Source: Caldifarciminota bacterium (GTDB lineage Bacteria; Hydrothermota; Tepidihabitantia; Tepidihabitantales; Tepidihabitantaceae). Taken from it: a DNA stretch of 64,000 nt. Under the pieces are notes generated by a model. That model was not told the DNA's origin and ran no database searches. It saw only the letters and a program-made list of their open reading frames with translations. How positions within the stretch are numbered: position 1 is the stretch's first letter; every line of letters begins with the position of its first letter. The translations under genes and the position numbers were made by a program. Below are positions 32,488-43,818 of this stretch, piece by piece. The stretch covers positions 113,217-177,216 of the forward strand of contig JAOABP010000004.1 of assembly GCA_026418295.1 (NCBI GenBank), read 5' to 3'.

Positions 32488-34080
32488 CTATCGCTCAATC
32501 ACCAGTCTCCGGGTGAAATTCCCGGCGCGCACCAGATAAACCCCACTGACAACCTTTCTGCCCGCATCATCAACCCCCTGCCACCAGCATCGGTCCTCAA
32601 CGGTCCGGCTCCACACCCTTCTGCCATCACTGCTGAAAATTGTCACCGCAACCGGTTTTCCCCCTTCAACTCTAATTCCGAATCCGGACCGGGATATGCT
32701 CGGCTGAACCGTCAACCCCGGCACCCGGCTCTCCGTTCCCTGCTCTTCAACCGCAACCTGACTGGAGTCAAGGGTGATGTCGCAGATAATTGTATCTCCG
32801 GCCTCCCGGATATTCCTGACATTCACCCAGGTCGGCTGGCCATTCCTTGCCCGGCTGGAAGGGTTGGACCAGTTGTCAAAGCTGGTCCGGTTCCAGATGC
32901 CGGGCAGCGGGTCTGAGGTATCACCCAGCGCCTCATGATAGATATGCGGATCGGGCCTGACCCCGTTTCCCCGGTCGAGATGATTAGTCGAATCCTCCTC
33001 CAGGTCCACCAGATTGTGCGCCGCACTGTAATACGGGTCAATGTGCCAGATCAGCAGTCCGGAACCGGGCAGGAGCGCATCAAACCCCTTCTTCTGCCGG
33101 TTCTCCAGCAGAAAGCAGGTATCACAGTTTCTGCCCTGACGCCAGACCTGGTAGACCACGGGATGGGTCTCAACATCCAGAATCCGCAGGCCGATGGTGT
33201 CGCGGGTGATCACCACCGGCTGGACAAAACCGGCCTCAACCTTGCTCCATGCCTCCATATGCGCCGGACTCCACGGTGTATTACCGCCCGCACCCCAGGC
33301 ACCATAGCCCATCAGACCCCAGTAGCCCACACCCCAGGTGTAACGGCTATAGTCATAAAGGTCGGGCAGTCCGACCAGATGACCCAGCTCATGGCACATC
33401 ACCGCAATACAGCACAGGGTTGTATCCCGGGTTTCGGTCACCATTGCAAACTCCGGCACATTGGTTACGCCGTCAATGATCACGCCATCATTGGTCCGGT
33501 AATTAAACCCCGGAATCGCATGGGACCAGCAGCAGTTGACATCACCATTATCCGCACCGTCCGCACCGGCATGAACCATGAACATCGCATCAATATGGCC
33601 GTCCCCGTTGATGTCATACTGCCGGAAGTCAATAAACGAGTCCACCTGCTGAAGGTTCTCCCGGGCAAGCTGACCGCCGGTGGAGAGCATGTAATTGCCG
33701 TCATAATAACGGGAATAATTGTACCGGGACAGAAACCAGCGGTTGCCGGCAACTCCGCCCCGGACCGAATACTGACCATAGGAGTTTTCGAGAAAGAAAT
33801 CATTCAGACTGCCTGCCCGATAGGGCGCATTATTGTAAACTCCGGTTGAATAGAGCATGGAATCAAACCTGGCAGGTGAATGCTCAACCGTGTCTGCCCG
33901 GTTGTCAGGAAACTGCATCAGGATTGTCACCGTCTCGCAGAAATCATAACCCTTCAGTTTATTCGGACCCGGGACCTCAACTCCGGGCGGAAAGACCGGC
34001 ATCGGTCCCTGAAAACCGGGTGCGGGTGGCATTGCCAGTCCGGCTGCAAGCATCAAAGCCAGTGGTAATATTCTGACCAT
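32488..34080 (-). CDS. M6-type (immune inhibitor A-like) secreted metalloprotease with sorting domain
   Basis: 530 residues. Signal peptide LPLALMLAAGLAMP. Catalytic domain from ~45 to 420: LNDFFLENSYGQYSVRG, DINGDGHIDAMFMVHAG, and the zinc motif CHELGHLVGLPDLYDYS (HELGH at residues 230-234), all typical of M6 proteases that cut extracellular proteins. C-terminal ~85 residues: a FlgD-like sorting domain (VAVTIFSSDGRRVWSRTV .. VVSGVYLVRAGNFTRRLVIER). AAGGAG 8 nt before ATG 34080. Coupled to the solenoid-HEAT gene downstream, which might be a substrate, a partner or just co-exported. Confidence 0.9.
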   Translation of the reverse strand: MVRILPLALMLAAGLAMPPAPGFQGPMPVFPPGVEVPGPNKLKGYDFCETVTILMQFPDNRADTVEHSPARFDSMLYSTGVYNNAPYRAGSLNDFFLENSYGQYSVRGGVAGNRWFLSRYNYSRYYDGNYMLSTGGQLARENLQQVDSFIDFRQYDINGDGHIDAMFMVHAGADGADNGDVNCCWSHAIPGFNYRTNDGVIIDGVTNVPEFAMVTETRDTTLCCIAVMCHELGHLVGLPDLYDYSRYTWGVGYWGLMGYGAWGAGGNTPWSPAHMEAWSKVEAGFVQPVVITRDTIGLRILDVETHPVVYQVWRQGRNCDTCFLLENRQKKGFDALLPGSGLLIWHIDPYYSAAHNLVDLEEDSTNHLDRGNGVRPDPHIYHEALGDTSDPLPGIWNRTSFDNWSNPSSRARNGQPTWVNVRNIREAGDTIICDITLDSSQVAVEEQGTESRVPGLTVQPSISRSGFGIRVEGGKPVAVTIFSSDGRRVWSRTVEDRCWWQGVDDAGRKVVSGVYLVRAGNFTRRLVIER

Positions 34081-34143
34081 TCATCACTCCTTTTTAAAAC
34101 AATAATCAAACCGCTGACCAAATCAAAATATTCGCTCGGCAAT

Positions 34144-34172
34144 TTGACTTTTCCAATTTTTCTGATTATTTA
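34144..34172 (+). promoter_or_regulatory. Promoter of the GNAT-like gene
   Basis: TTGACT (34144-34149), 17-bp spacer, TATTTA (34167-34172), followed by a ~30-nt leader with GAAAGGA before ATG 34209. A conventional, leadered promoter. Confidence 0.6.
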
Positions 34173-34208
34173 TTATTAGATGCTCGGGCATTCCTGAAAG
34201 GATTACAG

Positions 34209-35327
34209 ATGAGTATTTCAATTGAACCGGTCCAGAGTAAAAAGGACCTGACTGACTTCATCCGTCTCCCCTGGAAAATCTATCAGGGCAACCCCTGCTG
34301 GGTACCGCCCCTGATTTCCGAGGTCCATGAGACGCTTGACACCGCCAAAAACCCCTTCTGGGAGCATGCCCGGCGCGAACTTTACCTGGCTCGCCGGAAT
34401 GGCGAACCCGCAGGCAGAATTGCTGCGATTGTTGACGACAACCACAACCGTTTTCATCAGGAAAAGACCGGCTTCTTCGGCTTCTTTGAATGTATTGAAG
34501 ACTACCTGGTTGCCGAAAAACTGTGGGATACCGCACGCGAATGGGTGAAAAATCAGGGAATGGAACGGCTGCGCGGACCGGTCAACCCCAGTCTGAATGA
34601 CGAATGTGCCTTCCTGCTGGAAGGTTTTGATCAACCGCCGACGATCATGATGCCTTACACGCAGAAATACTATCTGGAGTTTGCCGAGCGCTACGGGTTT
34701 CACAAGGCAAAGGACCTCTATGCCCTGCTGAAACTGGCAGCTGACGGCATTCCGGAGCGGATTGAACGGATGATTAATGCGATCAAGCGCCGCACCGGAG
34801 TCAGGGTCCGTCCCTTTGATATGAAGCGGTTTGAGCGGGACATCCAGTTTCTCAAGGATATCTACAACTCCGCCTGGGAGAGAAACTGGGGCTTTGTGCC
34901 CATGACCGACAAGGAGATGGACCTGACCGCACGCAAGCTGAAACAGCTTGCCGACCCGGACCTGGTGCTCTTTGCGGAAATTGACGGTCAGCCGGTCGGA
35001 GTCACGGTCACCATCCCGGACTGGAATCAGGTACTCAGACATCTCAACGGCAGACTCGGACCGCTGGAACTGGTCAAACTGCTTTATTACCGGAAAAGGA
35101 TTGACGGTGCCCGGGCGCTGATTGGCGGGGTCAAAAAGGAGTTCCGCAACACCGGCATCATTGCGGTACTTTATTATGAGACTGAGCGCAATGCCGCACG
35201 CAAGGGCTACAAATGGTGCGAACTGGGCTGGAACCTGGAGGACAACGACCTGATCAACCAGTTTGACCTGGCGATCGGCGGCAGGATCTACAAGCGCTAC
35301 CGGCTCTATGAACTGGCACCGCTCTAA
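34209..35327 (+). CDS. GNAT-superfamily-like acyltransferase (uncharacterised)
   Basis: 372 residues, cytoplasmic, no signal. The pattern FIRLPWKIYQGNPCWVPPLI at the N-terminus, then GRIAAIVDDNHNRFH, FFGFFECIED, LRGPVNPSLNDECAFLLEGF and the C-terminal ELGWNLEDNDLINQFDLAIG .. IYKRYRLYEL are hallmarks of a conserved bacterial GNAT-like family with no assigned substrate. Two GNAT-like halves seem present. Stands between divergent secreted-protein genes; no functional link seen. Confidence 0.75.
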   Translation: MSISIEPVQSKKDLTDFIRLPWKIYQGNPCWVPPLISEVHETLDTAKNPFWEHARRELYLARRNGEPAGRIAAIVDDNHNRFHQEKTGFFGFFECIEDYLVAEKLWDTAREWVKNQGMERLRGPVNPSLNDECAFLLEGFDQPPTIMMPYTQKYYLEFAERYGFHKAKDLYALLKLAADGIPERIERMINAIKRRTGVRVRPFDMKRFERDIQFLKDIYNSAWERNWGFVPMTDKEMDLTARKLKQLADPDLVLFAEIDGQPVGVTVTIPDWNQVLRHLNGRLGPLELVKLLYYRKRIDGARALIGGVKKEFRNTGIIAVLYYETERNAARKGYKWCELGWNLEDNDLINQFDLAIGGRIYKRYRLYELAPL

Positions 35328-35330
35328 CTG

Positions 35331-35359
35331 TTGACTTCCTGAAATTTTATCCCTAAATT
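35331..35359 (+). promoter_or_regulatory. Promoter of the TPR-VCBS-ASPIC gene, near-leaderless
   Basis: TTGACT (35331-35336), 17-bp spacer, TAAATT (35354-35359); ATG 35369 at +10, no ribosome site. Confidence 0.55.
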
Positions 35360-35368
35360 TATCCTCTG

Positions 35369-37990
35369 ATGCTCCTGTTTTCACTCCTCATTTTTACCGC
35401 TCAACCGGTCCTGCAGGATTTTCTTGCCCGGCAGGACTATCCCGCTGCCACCAGTTATTATTACGCTCAGCTCCAGCGTCAGCCCCAGAACCCGGCTCTG
35501 CTCAAGAACCTTGCCCGGGTCTATGACCACTGGCACCGGTATGACTCCAGCCTCTACTTCTGGGAACTGGCGCTGAAGGCAAAACCGGATGATGACTCCG
35601 CAGTCATCGGCAGATGGCAGGCGCTCTATAACCTTCACCGCCGTGACTCAGTCCGGCTTGATTCGGTCCGCCAGCTGATTAGCACCGAAGCAGGAAAATA
35701 CTTTACTGACACCACCTATCGCAACCTCCTGCTTGCCCATACCGGCTTTGTGCTTGGCGAAGACTCAGTCCGTGCCCGGCGCGCCTTCAGCGTCCTGACC
35801 TTCATATATCCGGACTCCGCACCGGTTTATGAACTGCTCGGCTCTGCCTTCTACGACTCCCTCTATCCGGTCTGGAACAACGACACCGCCAAGGTGCTGG
35901 TCATCTCCCGCTTTCTTGCCCGCTATCCGAAGACCGAATGGCGCCAGACTTTCTATATCTATCTCCTGAGTTCACTCTACAGCCTGAACGACACCATCGG
36001 TCTTGCCCATTTCACTGAGGAGATGCTGAAAGATGATTCCCTGGACCCGTTCCGCTACCGTTATGCTGCCGCTCTGTTCAACCGGCTGAAATTCCGGCCC
36101 CGGCTTGCGGAACAGTATGCCCGGCGTGCGCTCCAGCTGACACCTGGAGCGAAAAAGCCGAAAAACAAACCGCCTGCCCAGTGGCAGCTGGAATATCCGC
36201 CTCTTGCCGGACTTGCCCGTGCCACCCTTGCTGAGGCACTGCTCATTCAGAACCGGGTCCGGGAGGCGGTGCCGGTGCTTTATGAAGCCCTGCGTCAGTT
36301 CTGCTGGGACACCGAAAACGAGTTTACCCCCGCACCATTCTGGTGTCTGCTCGGTGATGCCTATACCCGGCTGGGCAATCAGGACAGCGCCCGGCTCTGC
36401 TATCTCACCGCCCTCACCCTCGGCGACTCCCGCAACTACTGGTCTGCCCGGGCGGACACCGCGCTCCAGCAGCTGGGCATTCCGCCCGCACAGCAGCTTG
36501 AACTCTGCCGCCGGCAGTTTCACTATACCGGACCGGTATTCACCGATATCACCGACTCTGTAGGTCTTGCCGGCTGCCATGAGTCCCGGGTTGCCTGGGG
36601 TGATTACAACAGCGACGGGTTTGAAGACCTCCTGCTCAACGGCTGCCGGCTGTTCCGCAACGACTCCGGCAGGCACTTCACCGAGGTCACCGATTCTGCC
36701 GGACTTGCCGGCATCCGGGGCCGGGGCGGAATCTTTGCCGACTTCAACAACGACTACTGGCTGGACCTGTATGTCTGCGGTGCGGACACCCGGGACTGGC
36801 TCCTGCTCAACCATTTCGGTAAATTCCGCAACGCCACCGAATCGCTCGGCAACCCTTCAGACCCGTATCCGACCGAAGGCTGTGCTGCTGCCGACTTTGA
36901 CCTTGACGGCTGGCTTGACCTCTACTGTGCCAACTACGAAAACTGGGAAAAGCACACCTATTATCCGGACCGGCTCTATCACAACCTGCAGGGCAGATTT
37001 GAGGACATCACCGCCCGCGCCGGCATCATTCCGCCCTATGGTGAGGACCTTGCCGGCAGAGGTGTCAACTGGGGTGATTATGATGATGACGGTGATCCGG
37101 ACTGCTATGTCTCCAACTACCGGCTCTGCCAGAACTTCCTCTGGCACAACAATGGCGACCGCACCTTCACCAACCTCGCTCCGAAACTGGGGATTGCCGG
37201 TGATGAGGTTTCCGGGTGGTTCGGCCATACCATCGGCTCGGTCTGGGCAGACTATGACAACGACGGTGATCTGGACCTGTTCTGTGCCAACCTTGCCCAT
37301 CCCCGCTATATTGAGTTCTCCAACCGCTCCATGCTCTATGAAAACCGCGGACCGAAAGCACGCCCCCGGTTCCTTGACCGCCGCGCCCGGCTCGGCATCC
37401 GGTATGAGGAGACCCACTCCGATCCGGCATTCGGCGATCTGGACAACGACGGTGATCTTGACCTATACATCACCTCAGTCTATGAAAACCGGCGCTCATT
37501 TCTCTATCTCAACCAGCTCAACCCCGCACCGCGGCAGGCGACCGCCGGCTGGCAGAACCTGTTCGGCAACTGCCCGTTTGCCGAGGCAACCTTCCTTTCC
37601 GGCACCCGGCTCTTCAACGGCTGGGGCTGTGCCCTTGCCGACTTTGACAACGACGGCGACCTGGATCTGGTGGTCGGCTCAGGCTCCGGACTGCGCCTGT
37701 TCCGCAACGACACGAGAAACGGCAACCACTGGCTCAAGGTCCGGGTGGTCGGCACAAAACACAACGCCTGTGGTATCGGCGCCCGGGTCACGGTGATTCA
37801 GGGCAGAAAACGGTATATCCGGGAGATTGAAGGCGGAAAAGGCACTACCAGCCAGAACTCCCTGATCGCCCACTTCGGCCTGGGCGGTTCGGACCAGCCG
37901 GTCACAGTTCAGGTCCGGTTTGCCCCGGGCACAACCGTAACCCTCAAAGACATCAGACCGGACCGGCTGATTGTTGTCACCGAACCATAA
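35369..37990 (+). CDS. Secreted TPR / FG-GAP (VCBS) propeller / ASPIC-UnbV protein (CRTAC1 family)
   Basis: 873 residues. Signal peptide LLFSLLIFTAQP. Residues ~20-370 are TPR-like repeats. From ~405, seven FG-GAP/VCBS blades with calcium-loop words (WGDYNSDGFEDLLL, FADFNNDYWLDLYV, AADFDLDGWLDLYC, WGDYDDDGDPDCYV, WADYDNDGDLDLFC, FGDLDNDGDLDLYI, LADFDNDGDLDLVV). Residues ~785-873 are the ASPIC/UnbV domain (NHWLKVRVVGTKHNACGIGA .. GTTSQNSLIAHFGLG). The last ~80 bp of the gene have a displaced near-copy at 43529-43608. Such proteins are exported and often linked to adhesion or carbohydrate binding; the role here is unknown. Confidence 0.9.
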   Translation: MLLFSLLIFTAQPVLQDFLARQDYPAATSYYYAQLQRQPQNPALLKNLARVYDHWHRYDSSLYFWELALKAKPDDDSAVIGRWQALYNLHRRDSVRLDSVRQLISTEAGKYFTDTTYRNLLLAHTGFVLGEDSVRARRAFSVLTFIYPDSAPVYELLGSAFYDSLYPVWNNDTAKVLVISRFLARYPKTEWRQTFYIYLLSSLYSLNDTIGLAHFTEEMLKDDSLDPFRYRYAAALFNRLKFRPRLAEQYARRALQLTPGAKKPKNKPPAQWQLEYPPLAGLARATLAEALLIQNRVREAVPVLYEALRQFCWDTENEFTPAPFWCLLGDAYTRLGNQDSARLCYLTALTLGDSRNYWSARADTALQQLGIPPAQQLELCRRQFHYTGPVFTDITDSVGLAGCHESRVAWGDYNSDGFEDLLLNGCRLFRNDSGRHFTEVTDSAGLAGIRGRGGIFADFNNDYWLDLYVCGADTRDWLLLNHFGKFRNATESLGNPSDPYPTEGCAAADFDLDGWLDLYCANYENWEKHTYYPDRLYHNLQGRFEDITARAGIIPPYGEDLAGRGVNWGDYDDDGDPDCYVSNYRLCQNFLWHNNGDRTFTNLAPKLGIAGDEVSGWFGHTIGSVWADYDNDGDLDLFCANLAHPRYIEFSNRSMLYENRGPKARPRFLDRRARLGIRYEETHSDPAFGDLDNDGDLDLYITSVYENRRSFLYLNQLNPAPRQATAGWQNLFGNCPFAEATFLSGTRLFNGWGCALADFDNDGDLDLVVGSGSGLRLFRNDTRNGNHWLKVRVVGTKHNACGIGARVTVIQGRKRYIREIEGGKGTTSQNSLIAHFGLGGSDQPVTVQVRFAPGTTVTLKDIRPDRLIVVTEP
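37894..37972. repeat. 3' end of the ASPIC gene duplicated at 43529-43608
   Basis: About 79 bp near-identical to 43529-43608. The pair brackets the lower-GC 38.0-43.5 kb segment. Confidence 0.75.
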
Positions 37991-38022
37991 ATATTTAAAA
38001 AAATCCTGCACATTGCCACGAT

Positions 38023-38051
38023 TTGACACGATTCCCCAAAATTTGTACTAA
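38023..38051 (+). promoter_or_regulatory. Promoter of the phase-variable gene
   Basis: TTGACA (38023-38028), 17-bp spacer, TACTAA (38046-38051). The leader carries AAAGGGG 4-5 nt before ATG 38115. Confidence 0.55.
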
Positions 38052-38114
38052 TTAAAATGTGCCGGGTCGCTCCTCAAATGAGCGAGTCATAAATCAGCTC
38101 AGAAAGGGGAAAAA

Positions 38115-39495
38115 ATGAGAAGAGAAGAGAAGAGAAGAGAAGAGAAGAGAAGAGAAGAGAAATAAAAACCTAATCATCGCCCTCTTATTTCTCTTTCTCA
38201 GCCTTGCTGATTCTATTAATGCGTCATGGATCCCACTTGCGTCAATCCCCACGACTGTTCCAGGCCCATATGATGGTGCAGCATTAACATACGGTGGAAA
38301 ACGATGTCTATATGCAATCATGGGAGGCGGGTCGAATGTTTTTCTAAAATACAACAGCGATATGAACATATGGGAAATTATTAACACCAATACACCTACC
38401 TTTTTTGAAGGTGCAGCTCTGACTGCCGACACTCTTGGTGTTCTCTATGCATTACGGGGTGGTGGAACTCCTGAATTCTGGCTATATGACGTAGTCAGCA
38501 ATACATGGCAGCAACTGCCCGATTTGCCGGAACCGGTTAACTCAGGTGGAAGTCTAACCTTTGCTCGAAGAGGAAATTACTTTTTTGTTTACGCTCTTAT
38601 GGGGAACAAAAGCCCCCATTTTTACTGTTATGGTCCTTATGGACCCAGATTTGACGGCGGCGGTACACCCAAGGGCACAACCTACAACTGGTACCGATTG
38701 AAAGATCTCCCGGTATTTGAGTATGGGAATAAACTCTATCAGCTCTCTGCCTGGCCTGGAGCTTCACTTGCAGCACTCTGCGATGCGGAACATGGTGTTG
38801 ATAGCATATTCTGCATCCCGGTATCAGACGATTCATTCCCCGACTATGTCAAGAGAACCGTCCTTGCCTATCGCCCACTCCCGGAAAATACCTGGTTCAC
38901 ATCAAGAAGACTTGAACATACACCTGGACACGGAACCGCGATGGCAAGCATCGCCTTCCGTCCCTCACTGCTTTATCAACTTGCATGTCTGATCGGTGAC
39001 TCCCTGCACCGTTTTGCCGCCCACCGGTATATTGGTAACCATCTCTGGGAAGATTTTGAACCAACTCCCGAATACATCAAACCTGGCGCATCCATTGCCT
39101 ACGGTAATGATTACTACTATTACGCATTTTGGGGCGGCGGGAAAAGGACATTCGCGCGGGCAATTTATTATGACACCGATCTCCAAAATAGCGGACCGTT
39201 ATCTTGTGAGCAAACACTCGAAAACCGGTTGATCACCGCATTCCCCAATCCGTTTTCTCACAATACCGCAATCCATTTTCTCGTCCCGTACCCCGCTTAT
39301 TACCAAGCGTGCATTTACAACTCAACCGGTGAAATCGTGCATACCCTTTTTAGTCGCCATCTTGAACCCGGACCTTATGTATGCTTATGGAACCGCATTT
39401 CAAAATTTGGAACCGAAGTCCCAGCCGGTATTTATTTACTCAGGATCAAGTCGTCCGATGGCAGCCAGTTTTCATTGAAACTGACTGTCAGGTAG
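38115..39495 (+). CDS. Secreted Kelch-like propeller protein with sorting domain; start codon out of frame through an (AGAAG)8 repeat (phase-OFF)
   Basis: ATG 38115 has a good ribosome site (AAAGGGG) but is followed by eight AGAAG units, reads M(RREEK)2RREEK and stops at 38163-38165. The main frame (open from 38119) encodes NKNLIIALLFLFLSLA at 38161-38208, a clear signal-peptide core, then DSINASW and the mature protein. It contains no ATG before 38320, which would delete the signal. One extra AGAAG unit, or two fewer, joins the ATG to the signal peptide (M-RREEK repeats-R-NKNLIIALL...). The mature part has Kelch-like blades (ALTYGGKRCLYAIMGGGSN, WLYDVVSNTWQQLPDLPEP, FFVYALMGNKSPHF) and the C-terminus is a FlgD-like sorting domain (EVPAGIYLLRIKSSDG..LKLTVR). 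A slipped-strand ON/OFF switch is inferred; a sequencing or assembly miscount is the main alternative. Confidence 0.8.
38118..38160 (+). repeat. Pentanucleotide simple-sequence repeat (AGAAG)8 plus AGA
   Basis: Eight perfect AGAAG units plus a partial one, starting one base after the ATG of the gene it belongs to. A unit length not divisible by three makes every gain or loss a frameshift. Confidence 0.97.
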
Positions 39496-39503
39496 TCTAG
39501 AAT
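39475..39503 (+). promoter_or_regulatory. Leaderless promoter of the gene at 39510
   Basis: TTGAAA (39475-39480), 17-bp spacer, TAGAAT (39498-39503); ATG 39510 at +7. It lies within the 3' end of the preceding gene. Confidence 0.6.
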
Positions 39504-39509
39504 TTGACA

Positions 39510-42095
39510 ATGGAGCTGACCCGGCACGCTTCCCCAACATTAAAGGTAATAACCATCTGTACCTTCTTTATCATCTACTTTCTTTCTGCCCAGTATCTCG
39601 AAAAGGTAATCCCCGTGCCCTATCGGACCGAAGATAACGGTGCCACAGTTGAACCTTCATATCTGCTCTGTCTGCCCGAGTTAAACAAACTATACTGTGC
39701 CGGTGATATGGGTTGGACAATCGTTCTTGACTGCTCCAGCAACCAGATTATCAAAGACATACCCACTAACGGTCCCGCGGTTATTTATTACTGGCAGAGG
39801 CACAATAGAATTTATGCGGCAACTGCAGAGGGGACCGCGGTAATTAATTGTTATTCCGATTCAATATTAACTTCCATCCTGCCATCGGCACTCGGAGTTT
39901 TCAACGACTCGGAAAACTGTTATCTTGCCCGAGTAACATTTCCGGACCATTCCCGGCCGGACAACCAGAGCGCCGATGGGCTTGACCGCCAATTTACGGC
40001 GCTGCTCGTCATCGATGGCGAATCCAATACTGTTCGCCAAAGATTGAACTTTCTTGGCGCGGAAATGGCAGCGCTCTGGAATTCAACTGATAACCGGTAT
40101 CATATCTTCAACTGTAACGGTGATACAACCTGCCTGATGACGGTGATTGATGCCCGAACGAACACGATCATCGACACAGCCCGGTTTTGCGCCTCGTTGC
40201 CATTCTCGGTAGAAGCTTTTTACCTGACTGCTCTTAATAAAATTTATCTCTGTATCGCAAAAGAAATGCTGGTCATTGACGGACATTCAAACAGCCTTAT
40301 TACCCGACTGCCAGCTATTCCCGCTCAACCCTGGCTGATATACGACGATCTGCGGAATAAACTCTACTGCTTTCCCTTTTCGGTCAGCGCCGGCGAGACT
40401 GCCTTCATTTCGGTAATTAACTGCCTGAATGACAGCATCATTAACCGCTTTCCGGTTCCGGGCCCGGCATTTTTCACCCGGCCAGCCTTAAACCCGACCC
40501 TCAGCCGCCTTTTCTACCGCTCCGGCGGCTTCCTCCGTGTCATGGACTGCACTGCCGACACCCTGCTGGCTGATTCACTGCTGATCCCCGGCGGTTATGT
40601 CGCACTTGCATCCAGCCCGGTCCAAAACCGGATCTACGCCGCGGTAAATGACCGTAACCGGATTTACATAATTAATGCTGAAAATTTAACAGTTATTGAC
40701 ACGGTAACCACCGGCATGTATTCCAACTGTGATGTTGGCGGGGTAATTTTCAACCCGCGGGTAAATAAAATCTACGCCCGCAATTATCTGCCCGGTGACA
40801 CAGGCAGGCTTTCTATTATCTCGGTCATTGACGGTGCCATCGGCAGAAAGCTCAGCCATATCTGCACCGGCGTCAACGGCTCCTATGGCGACCGGGGAAT
40901 GTGTCTCCACCCTGCTGGTGAAAAACTGTATGTAGCCAATTCCGGTTCCAATAATATCACCATCATTGACTGCCGGTCTGATCGTATCGTCAAGGTCATC
41001 GGCCTGCCCTCCTCCCCTGAATATCTGGCATTGAATACGCAAAGCCATAAACTCTACTGCACACACGGCTCCGCCCCCTTGCTCTCAATAATTGATTGTC
41101 AACAAGACTCGCTACTGGCAACAATTCCCATACCGCTCAATTATTATGCCTACTGGCTCACCTGGCATCCTCAGGTAAACAAGGTTTATATCAAGGACCC
41201 GGGACGGCTGATTGTTGTTGACGGGGCGAACAATCAGGTGCGGAAAATAATACAACTTGACACCCGCGATTTATCATTTGTAACTCCGGGTGTTGCCAAT
41301 ACTGCTGACAGCCGACTCCACTTTCTGGTTGCAGGCATTCCTGAAGGCGCCTACTACTCAGTCGATGTCATCGCCGACACTGTCACCGCCAAAATCGGAC
41401 AACTGCGCTCCTGCATCGCAATCACCTGGCATCCCCAAACCGACAAAGTATACTTTCCCGCCTGGCGCATAATACCCAACCCTACCCCGGAATTGTGGAT
41501 CCTCAACGCCTTTAATGACTCGCTTCTCAAGACAATTTCCGTCACTGATTTTTACGGTCCTGCCCAGACCACCTCACCCATTTCCCATTCTAATTACAAC
41601 CGTGCCTATTTCCTGTTAAAAGAAAAAGGGCTGGCTGTCATCGACTGCACAGCGGATACCATCGCCCGGCTGATTCCATTTCCCGTCCGGGAAGAATGGG
41701 GCGAATACGGAATGAGCTTTGATACCGCGACAAACCGAATTTATGTTATCAATCCCGGCTCCCATATCTATGTATTCCGGGACGAAATTCCTGGTATCAA
41801 AAACAGCCGTAGTCTTCAACCGGCAGCCCCCTTTCTCCTCAATCCTAGTCCATTCCGCAACCGGTTGAAAATGACTTTACCGGCACAAACAAATCAAGTA
41901 ACCGGAATCAGTATCTACTGCGCTGATGGCAGACTTGTCCGTCACTTCAGCCCCGCAGAAATAACCTCCAGCGGTAATGTTATCATCTGGAACGGCACCG
42001 ACGACCGTAAACAGCCTCTTCCCGCTGGGACCTACTTTATTCGCCTCCGCACCGACAATAACACTGAAACACGCAAAATCGTCTTTGCAAGATAA
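39510..42095 (+). CDS. Secreted YVTN/NHL-type propeller repeat protein with C-terminal sorting domain
   Basis: 861 residues from ATG 39510, chosen over TTG 39504 because it sits at +7 of a promoter and gives a normal signal peptide (LKVITICTFFIIYFLSA). The body is a long series of YVTN-type blades ending in VIDC/VID..T words: KLYCAGDMGWTIVLDCSSNQ, KIYLCIAKEMLVIDGHSN, RIYAAVNDRNRIYIINAEN, KLYVANSGSNNITIIDC, KVYIKDPGRLIVVDGANN. The C-terminus QPLPAGTYFIRLRTDNNTET .. IVFAR is the sorting segment. 14 nt after the phase-variable gene; base composition is lower in GC than genes outside 38-48 kb. No catalytic residues seen. Confidence 0.88.
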   Translation: MELTRHASPTLKVITICTFFIIYFLSAQYLEKVIPVPYRTEDNGATVEPSYLLCLPELNKLYCAGDMGWTIVLDCSSNQIIKDIPTNGPAVIYYWQRHNRIYAATAEGTAVINCYSDSILTSILPSALGVFNDSENCYLARVTFPDHSRPDNQSADGLDRQFTALLVIDGESNTVRQRLNFLGAEMAALWNSTDNRYHIFNCNGDTTCLMTVIDARTNTIIDTARFCASLPFSVEAFYLTALNKIYLCIAKEMLVIDGHSNSLITRLPAIPAQPWLIYDDLRNKLYCFPFSVSAGETAFISVINCLNDSIINRFPVPGPAFFTRPALNPTLSRLFYRSGGFLRVMDCTADTLLADSLLIPGGYVALASSPVQNRIYAAVNDRNRIYIINAENLTVIDTVTTGMYSNCDVGGVIFNPRVNKIYARNYLPGDTGRLSIISVIDGAIGRKLSHICTGVNGSYGDRGMCLHPAGEKLYVANSGSNNITIIDCRSDRIVKVIGLPSSPEYLALNTQSHKLYCTHGSAPLLSIIDCQQDSLLATIPIPLNYYAYWLTWHPQVNKVYIKDPGRLIVVDGANNQVRKIIQLDTRDLSFVTPGVANTADSRLHFLVAGIPEGAYYSVDVIADTVTAKIGQLRSCIAITWHPQTDKVYFPAWRIIPNPTPELWILNAFNDSLLKTISVTDFYGPAQTTSPISHSNYNRAYFLLKEKGLAVIDCTADTIARLIPFPVREEWGEYGMSFDTATNRIYVINPGSHIYVFRDEIPGIKNSRSLQPAAPFLLNPSPFRNRLKMTLPAQTNQVTGISIYCADGRLVRHFSPAEITSSGNVIIWNGTDDRKQPLPAGTYFIRLRTDNNTETRKIVFAR

Positions 42096-42172
42096 TAATT
42101 TTTCCTGGGGGGTATCATTACTAAACAAGATATCGCGCCAGACAGCTGTTTGTTGCTGAACCGCAAAGTTTA

Positions 42173-42535
42173 TTAAATTGTAAAGTAATAATACCTCCGG
42201 TCCTGACCGTCAAAGACCACGACCGAACTGCCATCAACACTGCCGGAAAAATGAGCCCCGGAACCGTAATCATAACCCTCAAAACTGCTGCCCCTGATCT
42301 TCAGCTCAATATGGTGCCGGTTGCCGTGATGATAAAGTGAGTAACAGTCCTTCTCACCATAACCGCTGACCCGGCACCGCGCCTCCGGATCATAAACAAG
42401 AATCTGCTCCGGCGAAACCGTCCCGGAAAACCGGCAGGTCCGGGAGGCTTCACAGTCATAGATTGACCAGGCCTCACTCCCGGAAATCAGCCTGCCGGCA
42501 ACAAACGCCACCACCCGTCGGGTATTATCCTTCAT
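42173..42535 (-). CDS. Small conserved-looking protein of unknown function
   Basis: 120 residues, no signal peptide. Contains two related blocks, CRFSGTVSPEQILVYDPEA and HFSGSVDGSSVVVFDGQDR, suggesting short beta repeats, plus an aromatic end (RRYYYFTI). No family recognised. No good ribosome site. A damaged second copy with the middle deleted lies at 43636-43818, and the flanking DNA upstream is duplicated as well, so this unit has been copied within the region. Confidence 0.6.
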   Translation of the reverse strand: MKDNTRRVVAFVAGRLISGSEAWSIYDCEASRTCRFSGTVSPEQILVYDPEARCRVSGYGEKDCYSLYHHGNRHHIELKIRGSSFEGYDYGSGAHFSGSVDGSSVVVFDGQDRRYYYFTI

Positions 42536-42770: not shown

Positions 42771-43340
42771 TCATTCCGCTCTTTTATCTTTATCTTCCCT
42801 TTCTTCTCTCTCTTCTCTTTCTTCATCACCTTTAATCACCTTAAAATCACCCGGTTCCAGTAAAAACCTCGCCGCCTGCTCGTACTCCCGGGTCAGCTTC
42901 CGCATTCTGGTTTCCACCTCATTCAGGAGCAGGACATGGATTTTAACAAAAGAAAGCCTGATGTCCCTTTCAATTGCCTTTATATCCTGCTCAAGCGACC
43001 TTCCCCATATCGGACCCGGCACGGATTTTCTCATGTGTTCATAGATCTCAATAAGGGGCGGAATGACAATCGCCAGAACTCTGGCACCGCATTTTTCCAG
43101 ATCAAAAATATCCTCTCGCAGCGATTTGTTCCAGTAATCGTCTGCGATTTCGAAAGCGGCGATCGCCCGGTATTCCTTGAACCCCTGCAGAACCGGCATT
43201 TCTCCATTCGGGAGCATATATTTGAAAAACCAGGCGACATCAACCGTAATTGAGCCCGGTCCCGGGACATCAACAAAAGATGCGTACCCCAGTTTTTCAC
43301 CGATCTGTCTGATCTGTTCCACGGCTTTTTTCTTGTCCAT
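42771..43340 (-). CDS. Hypothetical protein, possible nuclease-like fold, charged C-terminal tail
   Basis: 189 residues from ATG 43340, chosen for AAAGGAGGAG 4 nt upstream over a longer frame from 43382. N-terminal part has VDVAWFFKYMLPNGEMPVLQ, then AIAAFEIADDYW and VLAIVIPPLIEIY. The spacing of Asp and Glu recalls PD-(D/E)XK nucleases, but the Lys is missing, so this is only a weak suggestion. The last ~20 residues are almost all E/R/K/D (from GDEEREEREERE). The promoter is probably the TTGACA-18-TATTTT within the direct repeat at 43456-43536. Confidence 0.6.
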   Translation of the reverse strand: MDKKKAVEQIRQIGEKLGYASFVDVPGPGSITVDVAWFFKYMLPNGEMPVLQGFKEYRAIAAFEIADDYWNKSLREDIFDLEKCGARVLAIVIPPLIEIYEHMRKSVPGPIWGRSLEQDIKAIERDIRLSFVKIHVLLLNEVETRMRKLTREYEQAARFLLEPGDFKVIKGDEEREEREEREDKDKRAE

Positions 43341-43455
43341 CACTCCTCCTTTTATGCTGATCAGCCCTCCGGGTGGAACCACCGGCTCCTAAGGATTGCC
43401 ACCCGCTAATTGTAAATTATGACACCCTGTCGGTACCCGTCGCCACGCCAGTAAG

Positions 43456-43536
43456 TAAAATATGCTTCAATAAATACCCCTGTCAATCAATTCCTGCCCT
43501 CAATCCGGCTCATTGTCCGGGTTGATCACCAGCCGG
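43456..43536. repeat. Imperfect direct repeat A flanking the restriction-modification region
   Basis: About 81 bp, roughly 85-90% identical by eye to 48306-48387. On the minus strand both contain the same gene tail (..INPxNEPD then stop) followed by TTGACA-N18-TATTTT (here 43486-43457). Confidence 0.8.
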
Positions 43537-43608
43537 TCACGGTTCAGGTCCGGTTTGCCCCGGGCACAACCGTAACCCTCAAAGACAATCAAACCGGACC
43601 GGCTGATT
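43529..43608. repeat. Displaced copy of the ASPIC gene 3' end
   Basis: About 80 bp matching 37894-37972 with few mismatches and a 1-bp insertion. It joins direct repeat A directly, marking a recombination junction. Confidence 0.75.
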
Positions 43609-43635
43609 TTCATCCCGGAATCCTGAAACTGAAAA

Positions 43636-43818
43636 CTAAATTGTAAAGTAGCGATATTTACGGTCCTAACCGTCAAGGATCACGACCGCACCGTCATCCA
43701 CGCTGCCCGAAAACCGGCAGGTCCGGGACTCCTCACAGTCATAGATTGACCAGGCCTCACTCCCGGAAATCAGCCTGCCGGCAACAAACGCCACCACCCG
43801 TCGGGTATTATCCTTCAT
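43636..43818 (-). pseudogene. Decayed paralogue of the 42173-42535 gene
   Basis: Same start (MKDNTRRVVAFVAGRLISGS) and same end (YFTI, stop), but the frame jumps from CRFSG straight to SVDDG, an in-frame loss of roughly 60 codons between the two FSG blocks. A TAG at 43668-43666 replaces the Gln codon of the intact copy. Deletion by recombination between the internal FSG repeats, followed by a nonsense mutation, explains it. Confidence 0.85.

Follow-up and report, generated by a model that had tools for sequence, protein, structure and literature searches.

An AGAAG repeat between start codon and signal peptide as a probable on/off switch of a secreted Kelch-like protein in an uncultured WOR-3 bacterium

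The opa genes of Neisseria are described as carrying pentameric CTCTT repeats in the region that encodes the leader peptide (PMC5354566), and tetranucleotide contingency genes are described in Haemophilus influenzae (PMC2651432). Whether multi-locus phase variation is truly confined to pathogens is left open in section 8 of one review (PMC11868660).

Here we analysed a stretch of 64,000 nucleotides (the window) from an uncultured bacterium of the WOR-3 group with an assembly of 1.80 Mb. The locus resembles Neisseria opa in that a pentameric repeat lies at the 5' end of a gene, in the region that encodes a signal peptide, the number of units sets the reading frame and the predicted product is secreted. 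We consider it likely that this is a phase-variable (contingency) locus, of a kind familiar chiefly from pathogens, where slippage in the array would switch a secreted, predicted Kelch-propeller protein on and off. The open-licence literature gave us nothing that joins WOR-3 and phase variation, and among the matches listed there was no bacterial use of an AGAAG repeat; nearly all concerned eukaryotic satellites or disease repeats.

The array, its reading frames and the product

The features of the locus, in window positions, are:

38023..38052, + strand: promoter-like TTGACA-18-ACTAAT, 10/12 to the sigma-70 consensus, the best of many positions, where chance matches are common
38103..38109, + strand: Shine-Dalgarno (SD)-like AAAGGGG; the counterpart in equal position in genome G002 is AAAGGAG
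38115..38165, + strand: OFF reading frame MRREEKRREEKRREEK, 16 codons, from ATG 38115-38117 to the stop TAA 38163-38165
38118..38157, + strand: (AGAAG)8 array, the proposed switch, based on the sequence, background scans, in-silico unit counts and the array of the G002 ortholog
38161..38223, + strand: predicted signal peptide NKNLIIALLFLFLSLADSINA, which lacks its own start codon; hydrophobic core with a mean Kyte-Doolittle value of 3.2 over 12 residues; G002 has an equivalent
38224..39495, + strand: predicted mature Kelch-like protein with a T9SS type A sorting domain at about 39241-39489; Kelch_3 24.6 bits (cut-off 22), TIGR04183 23.9 bits (cut-off 23)
39504..42095, + strand: next gene, 863 aa, with YVTN-type propeller repeats and a T9SS sorting domain, 9 bases 3' of the Kelch gene; TIGR02276 44.9 bits, TIGR04183 32.1 bits

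The perfect period-5 run covers 38117-38161 (45 nt), and AGAAATAAAAACC stands directly 3' of (AGAAG)8. The earlier note had placed the array behind an ATG with a ribosome site, had ended the ATG frame after 16 codons, had given the signal-peptide frame no start before 38320 and had held that one more or two fewer units would fuse the two frames; we found all of this to be so. The signal-peptide frame is +1 relative to the ATG frame, is open across the array, has its first ATG, GTG or TTG at 38320 and, from 38158 to the stop at 39495, comprises 445 open codons. Because the unit has five bases, which is no multiple of three, every gain or loss of a unit shifts the frame; with unit counts from 4 to 13 in silico, the ATG and the signal-peptide frame were joined only at 6, 9 and 12 units, giving proteins of 456, 461 and 466 aa. 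The AGAAG repeat is stop-free in all three frames and reads RREEK in each (net charge +1 per five residues), so an ON protein would start M(RREEK)n-RNKN and continue into the hydrophobic core.

In 40 simulations of 64 kb under a first-order Markov model, period-5 runs reached at most 15 nt, as compared to the 45 nt of the real sequence. Across 464 kb, or 26% of the genome, made up of the window and 20 stretches of 20 kb each, the second-longest repeat with units of 2-9 bases was 18 nt and homopolymers were 8 nt among the matches listed. We found no second occurrence of the 15-nt repeat piece AGAAGAGAAGAGAAG anywhere in the assembly of 1.80 Mb. The locus thereby shows what marks SSR phase-variable genes, a non-triplet SSR within the 5' coding region that is far longer than the genome background. 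Two MutS-type proteins are encoded; since mismatch repair recognises loops of at least four bases poorly, they are no argument against slippage. Elsewhere in the window, an imperfect 9-nt repeat of 3.6 copies (42793-42824), with an EERE-type run at the C-terminus of the minus-strand ORF 42771-43382, has no effect on the frame because its period is a multiple of three.

At the G002 locus, TTGACA-16-TATAAT, which fits the sigma-70 consensus at 12/12, lies at a like distance. Promoter-like elements 5' of the WOR-3 loci score 10 to 12 of 12, these being best-of-many scores without a null, and promoter-like sites showed no excess over shuffled sequence.

The Kelch match in the window protein is weak, just over threshold. 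The sorting domain TIGR04183 reaches 35 bits in the G002 ortholog; PF18962, the Pfam sorting domain, gave no reported match in the window protein at E 0.001. A C-terminal sorting domain above the curated cut-off is what identifies T9SS type A cargo, and for the type IX machinery we found a SprA_N match of 105 bits in the genome, as compared to 0/14 control genomes (SprA was the only component searched). The 863-aa propeller gene and the Kelch gene are likely cotranscribed. A scan of genome contigs with the window protein confirmed no relative, and viral contigs scanned with alignment A1 gave no match.

As we picture the mechanism, the eight AGAAG units that separate ATG 38115 from the predicted signal peptide would keep the gene out of frame, and replication slippage would add or remove five-base units, so that the gene would be ON at 6, 9 or 12 units and OFF otherwise, with cells of different array lengths coexisting. 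The RREEK repeats of the ON form would act as a net-basic n-region ahead of the hydrophobic core; the protein would be exported by Sec and then by the type IX system, and polarity may extend the effect to the downstream propeller gene. Bet-hedging is the likely use: an exposed protein would be varied in the face of phage, predators or partners that change.

Relatives of the locus and further arrays

Among 100 genomes (the window's own included), G002, from the same genus, is the sole one with a near-full-length relative (55% amino acid identity, residues 8-445), and its ortholog sits behind the same FG-GAP gene as the window gene. The 5' end in G002 is SD-ATG-AG-(AGAAG)4-AGAAAC, with 4 units as compared to 8 in the window and the signal frame at –1 from the ATG as compared to +1; the relation between the ATG and signal frames thus differs between the two species. 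Both are OFF, and we found no ON allele of the Kelch gene in either. Over 438 codons, window and G002 identity by codon position is 0.63/0.71/0.36. Over the 53 codons from the array to MGGG, where the first in-frame ATG stands, which contain no ATG, GTG or TTG, it is 0.57/0.70/0.42; the conservation of this stretch, least at third positions, indicates that it has been retained as coding sequence in a frame for which neither assembly offers a start. Taken together, the in-silico counts and the codon-position conservation indicate that the number of units determines whether translation ends early or reads through a long intact ORF, which is under selection.

The database protein P0002 (NCBI label WOR-3) is identical to the G002 protein at 368/391 residues and its annotated start is MGGG, which would fit an out-of-frame start there too. 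P0003 is a distant homolog (34%) with an ordinary signal-peptide start, and a 30% match in G001 covers residues 102-435 and lies at a different place. G001 is 89% identical in DNA across 33833-37998, and the block 37999-42171 (array gene and next gene) is cleanly absent from it. The Kelch gene and the 863-aa propeller gene act as a unit over 37999-42171, missing in G001 and at the same place in G002. At 43528-43809, the window holds a partial second copy of the 3' end of the FG-GAP gene fused to the start of the segment from 42172 onward; it is 96% identical to 37893-37972 and to 42423-42532 and corresponds to the arrangement without the two-gene cassette.

We scanned 147 genomes of the phylum with a query of 17 nt of AGAAG repeat, and 6 genomes matched. 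Arrays of 4 or more units number five in four genomes: the window genome, G002, G081 (two) and G100. All five have an SD and ATG before the array and a signal-like stretch after it, and 0/5 are in frame. The two G081 arrays (contigs C22 and C74) have identical flanks over 261 bases and 5 and 8 units, which we read as the most direct sign of length change; both counts give one and the same frame, and the C74 contig ends there. An ATG with its own SD stands between array and signal in both, so that the array might choose between two N-termini there. The unit count of G100 is unsafe because the assembly coverage is 3.3 and the frame is broken 78 codons past the array. The 3-unit matches in G101 and G072 lie within ordinary coding sequence and were rejected as switches. 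Purine runs (ATG plus 29 purines), present in 43/147 genomes, were not counted, as they do not have the SD-ATG-signal peptide arrangement; most of the 20 places examined, out of those listed, held purine repeats of an irregular or heptamer-like kind or coding sequence rich in Lys and Glu.

An exact search of an 84,980-species collection for AGG-N4-10-ATG-N0-12-(AGAAG)4+ gave 28 stretches. Together with the window and G002, we asked of these 30 places whether a hydrophobic stretch follows in a frame that has no stop for 80 codons or reaches the contig end first, and found that 10/30 run into such a stretch as compared to 2/30 on the other side of the array (Fisher P 0.011). The ten are not independent, as G081 and one Myxococcota genome contribute two each and another two are the orthologs of the window and G002, which had been known beforehand. 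Without these last two, the count is 8/28. The ten positives include two lipoprotein-like starts (the Myxococcota genome), an FG-GAP protein with its array in frame (L133) and a protein from Clostridiaceae that carries lectin and cellulose-binding domains; L131 qualified because its frame continues past the contig end. The 20 places that failed looked intergenic or unrelated by this criterion; two of them, L134 and L136, which combine a signal-like stretch with an early stop, entered the tally of 12 arrays given below by eye. An in-frame ATG of L128 was rejected, since it meets a stop at codon 3 and the ATG adjoining the array is out of frame. In L151 (a Synergistales record), SD-ATG-(AGAAG)6 is out of frame with a B12-binding domain protein that is not secreted, possibly a switch on a cytoplasmic protein.

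CT arrays matched in 15/147 genomes, with at least 30 arrays. We examined 20 of the 30 listed, leaving out those of G060, G053, G005 and G138, two of G015, and G011 C50 and G139 C31, C115 and C116. The arrangement SD-ATG-CT-signal is present in 7/20 (L233, L234, L235, L237, L238, L239, L240), all in the distant WOR-3 family f18 (G081, G100, G094), and is absent from the remaining examined stretches (G081 C84, G114, G011, G002 C53, G014, G139, G091, G070). L233, L237 (the C118 locus), L238, L239 and L240 are out of frame; L234, with two N adjoining its array, and L235 are in frame. L235 (G081 C36) is an ordinary signal with CT inside it, its core preceding the array. A possible own start lies between array and core in L233 (ATG) and in L238 and L240 (GTG or TTG). 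LVIVD repeats, which form propellers, matched in L233, L239 and L240.

The promoter and leader of the G081 AGAAG loci recur at C70, C37, C118 and C83 of that genome. C70 and C118 are paralogs (proteins 82% and DNA 88% identical) with SD-ATG-leader-(CT)7 and -(CT)15, followed by a common signal peptide, and their frames relative to the ATG differ. At L200 (G081 C37), the promoter, leader and (CT)7 of C70 are joined to a different secreted gene with its own ATG, as if a switch module had been recombined onto it. Four places in G139 (L246-L249) have the leader MKRLGID before (CT)10-14 and a common flank, with no signal peptide close behind; perhaps they are another repeat-switched family.

Pooling gave 20 arrays, 12 AGAAG and 8 CT (the latter including L199); L200 was excluded because its signal peptide has its own ATG. 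We found 1/12 AGAAG (L133) and 2/8 CT arrays (L234, L235) in frame, and thus 3/20 in frame and 17/20 out of frame. With one third expected in frame, P is 0.06, and an excess of OFF among the collected arrays is possible. No ATG, GTG or TTG of their own precedes the hydrophobic core in 14/20; L235 is among the other six. In 5/20, the stretch from array to core contains an ATG, GTG or TTG in frame, so the array may not be the sole way to start there.

Alternative explanations of the out-of-frame start

The simplest account of the locus is SSR phase variation. Under an assembly miscount, every cell would really have an in-frame number of units (9), and the array would be a fixed and neutral n-region in a secreted protein of the ordinary kind. 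This is very unlikely, because the error would have to recur in separate assemblies: every array does stem from a draft assembly, in some cases next to a contig end or N and in one, G100, at low coverage, but the window genome and G002 would each need a miscount, most of the collected arrays are out of frame, and at 45 nt the array is shorter than the usual short read. Less likely still is that the gene is a pseudogene in decay, its start lost when the repeat expanded. The gene is out of frame in both species and G001 lacks the two-gene block at this place; however, 445 codons in the window and 447 in G002 are open to the end, third-position bias is kept both before and after MGGG, and the SD and array are kept in both species. 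Decay fails because the coding frame is conserved.

The purine-rich array ahead of a stop (GAG AAA TAA) in the window could suggest a programmed ribosomal frameshift or recoding, by which some ribosomes would reach the signal-peptide frame at a fixed rate. We regard this as highly improbable, since the window would require a +1 shift and G002 a –1 shift, where a fixed programmed frameshift would keep one direction between orthologs; G002 has no stop at the end of the array, and we saw no shared slippery site. A start of translation 3' of the array, at an uncommon codon (ATC 38173 or 38176) or through reinitiation, with the array as a leader or ribosome-loading element only, is scarcely credible: the array is purine-rich, the ATC codons are in the signal frame and the two G081 AGAAG loci have the ATG with its own SD at this place, but the ATC codons lie within the hydrophobic core, so that starting there would delete the basic n-region, and G002 has no ATG, GTG or TTG there.

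Under phase variation, relatives should keep the array and the open frame while the relation between the frames drifts, and G002 does so. The earlier note, which had already read the locus as a contingency locus, had named a close relative with a non-repeat in-frame start as evidence against this; the closest ortholog we found, that of G002, has the array, and G001 is without the gene at this place. Its reading is supported in that G002 keeps the array with the opposite shift and a conserved coding frame; the switching itself is inferred. Its remark that no such locus was known in this kind of lineage has to be widened, with similar loci elsewhere in WOR-3 and in other phyla.

Comparison with known contingency loci

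We lean towards the view that uncultured WOR-3 bacteria have multi-locus repertoires of secreted propeller proteins that repeats switch on and off, in which AGAAG and CT arrays between SD-ATG and signal peptide arose in separate families (AGAAG also in other phyla) and the repeat is part of the export signal. If this is true, contingency loci would be a general means by which bacteria that are not known as pathogens diversify their exposed proteins. The loci are candidates for multi-locus repertoires in uncultured bacteria and bear on the purpose of phase variation where no host immune system is known. They also bear on gene calling, as the database proteins P0001 and P0002 begin at internal ATGs of such genes.

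The contingency SSRs of H. influenzae lie near the start codon, and the window locus is like these genes in that a non-triplet repeat at this position shifts the frame, which in H. influenzae switches surface traits; the unit and the products are other ones, and H. influenzae is a pathogen with many loci per genome. The CT loci of family f18 have the same order of SD, ATG, short leader, SSR, signal peptide and secreted protein; unlike the window locus, they have a dinucleotide array that reads SLSLSL and occur as several loci per genome with a common promoter and leader.

CTCTT in opa and AAGAG/AGAAG in the window are one duplex repeat of which opposite strands are read. In opa, the pyrimidine strand encodes part of the hydrophobic core; in contrast, the coding strand in the window is the purine strand, from which a charged RREEK n-region ahead of the signal core is read. 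The window product is Kelch/T9SS-like with no Opa barrel (Pfam and NCBIfam gave Kelch and the T9SS sorting domain only), the AGAAG locus is single in its genome and no host interaction is known. The mechanism is thus of a known kind, closest to that of Neisseria opa, and what looks new is the lineage, the strand and the n-region design.
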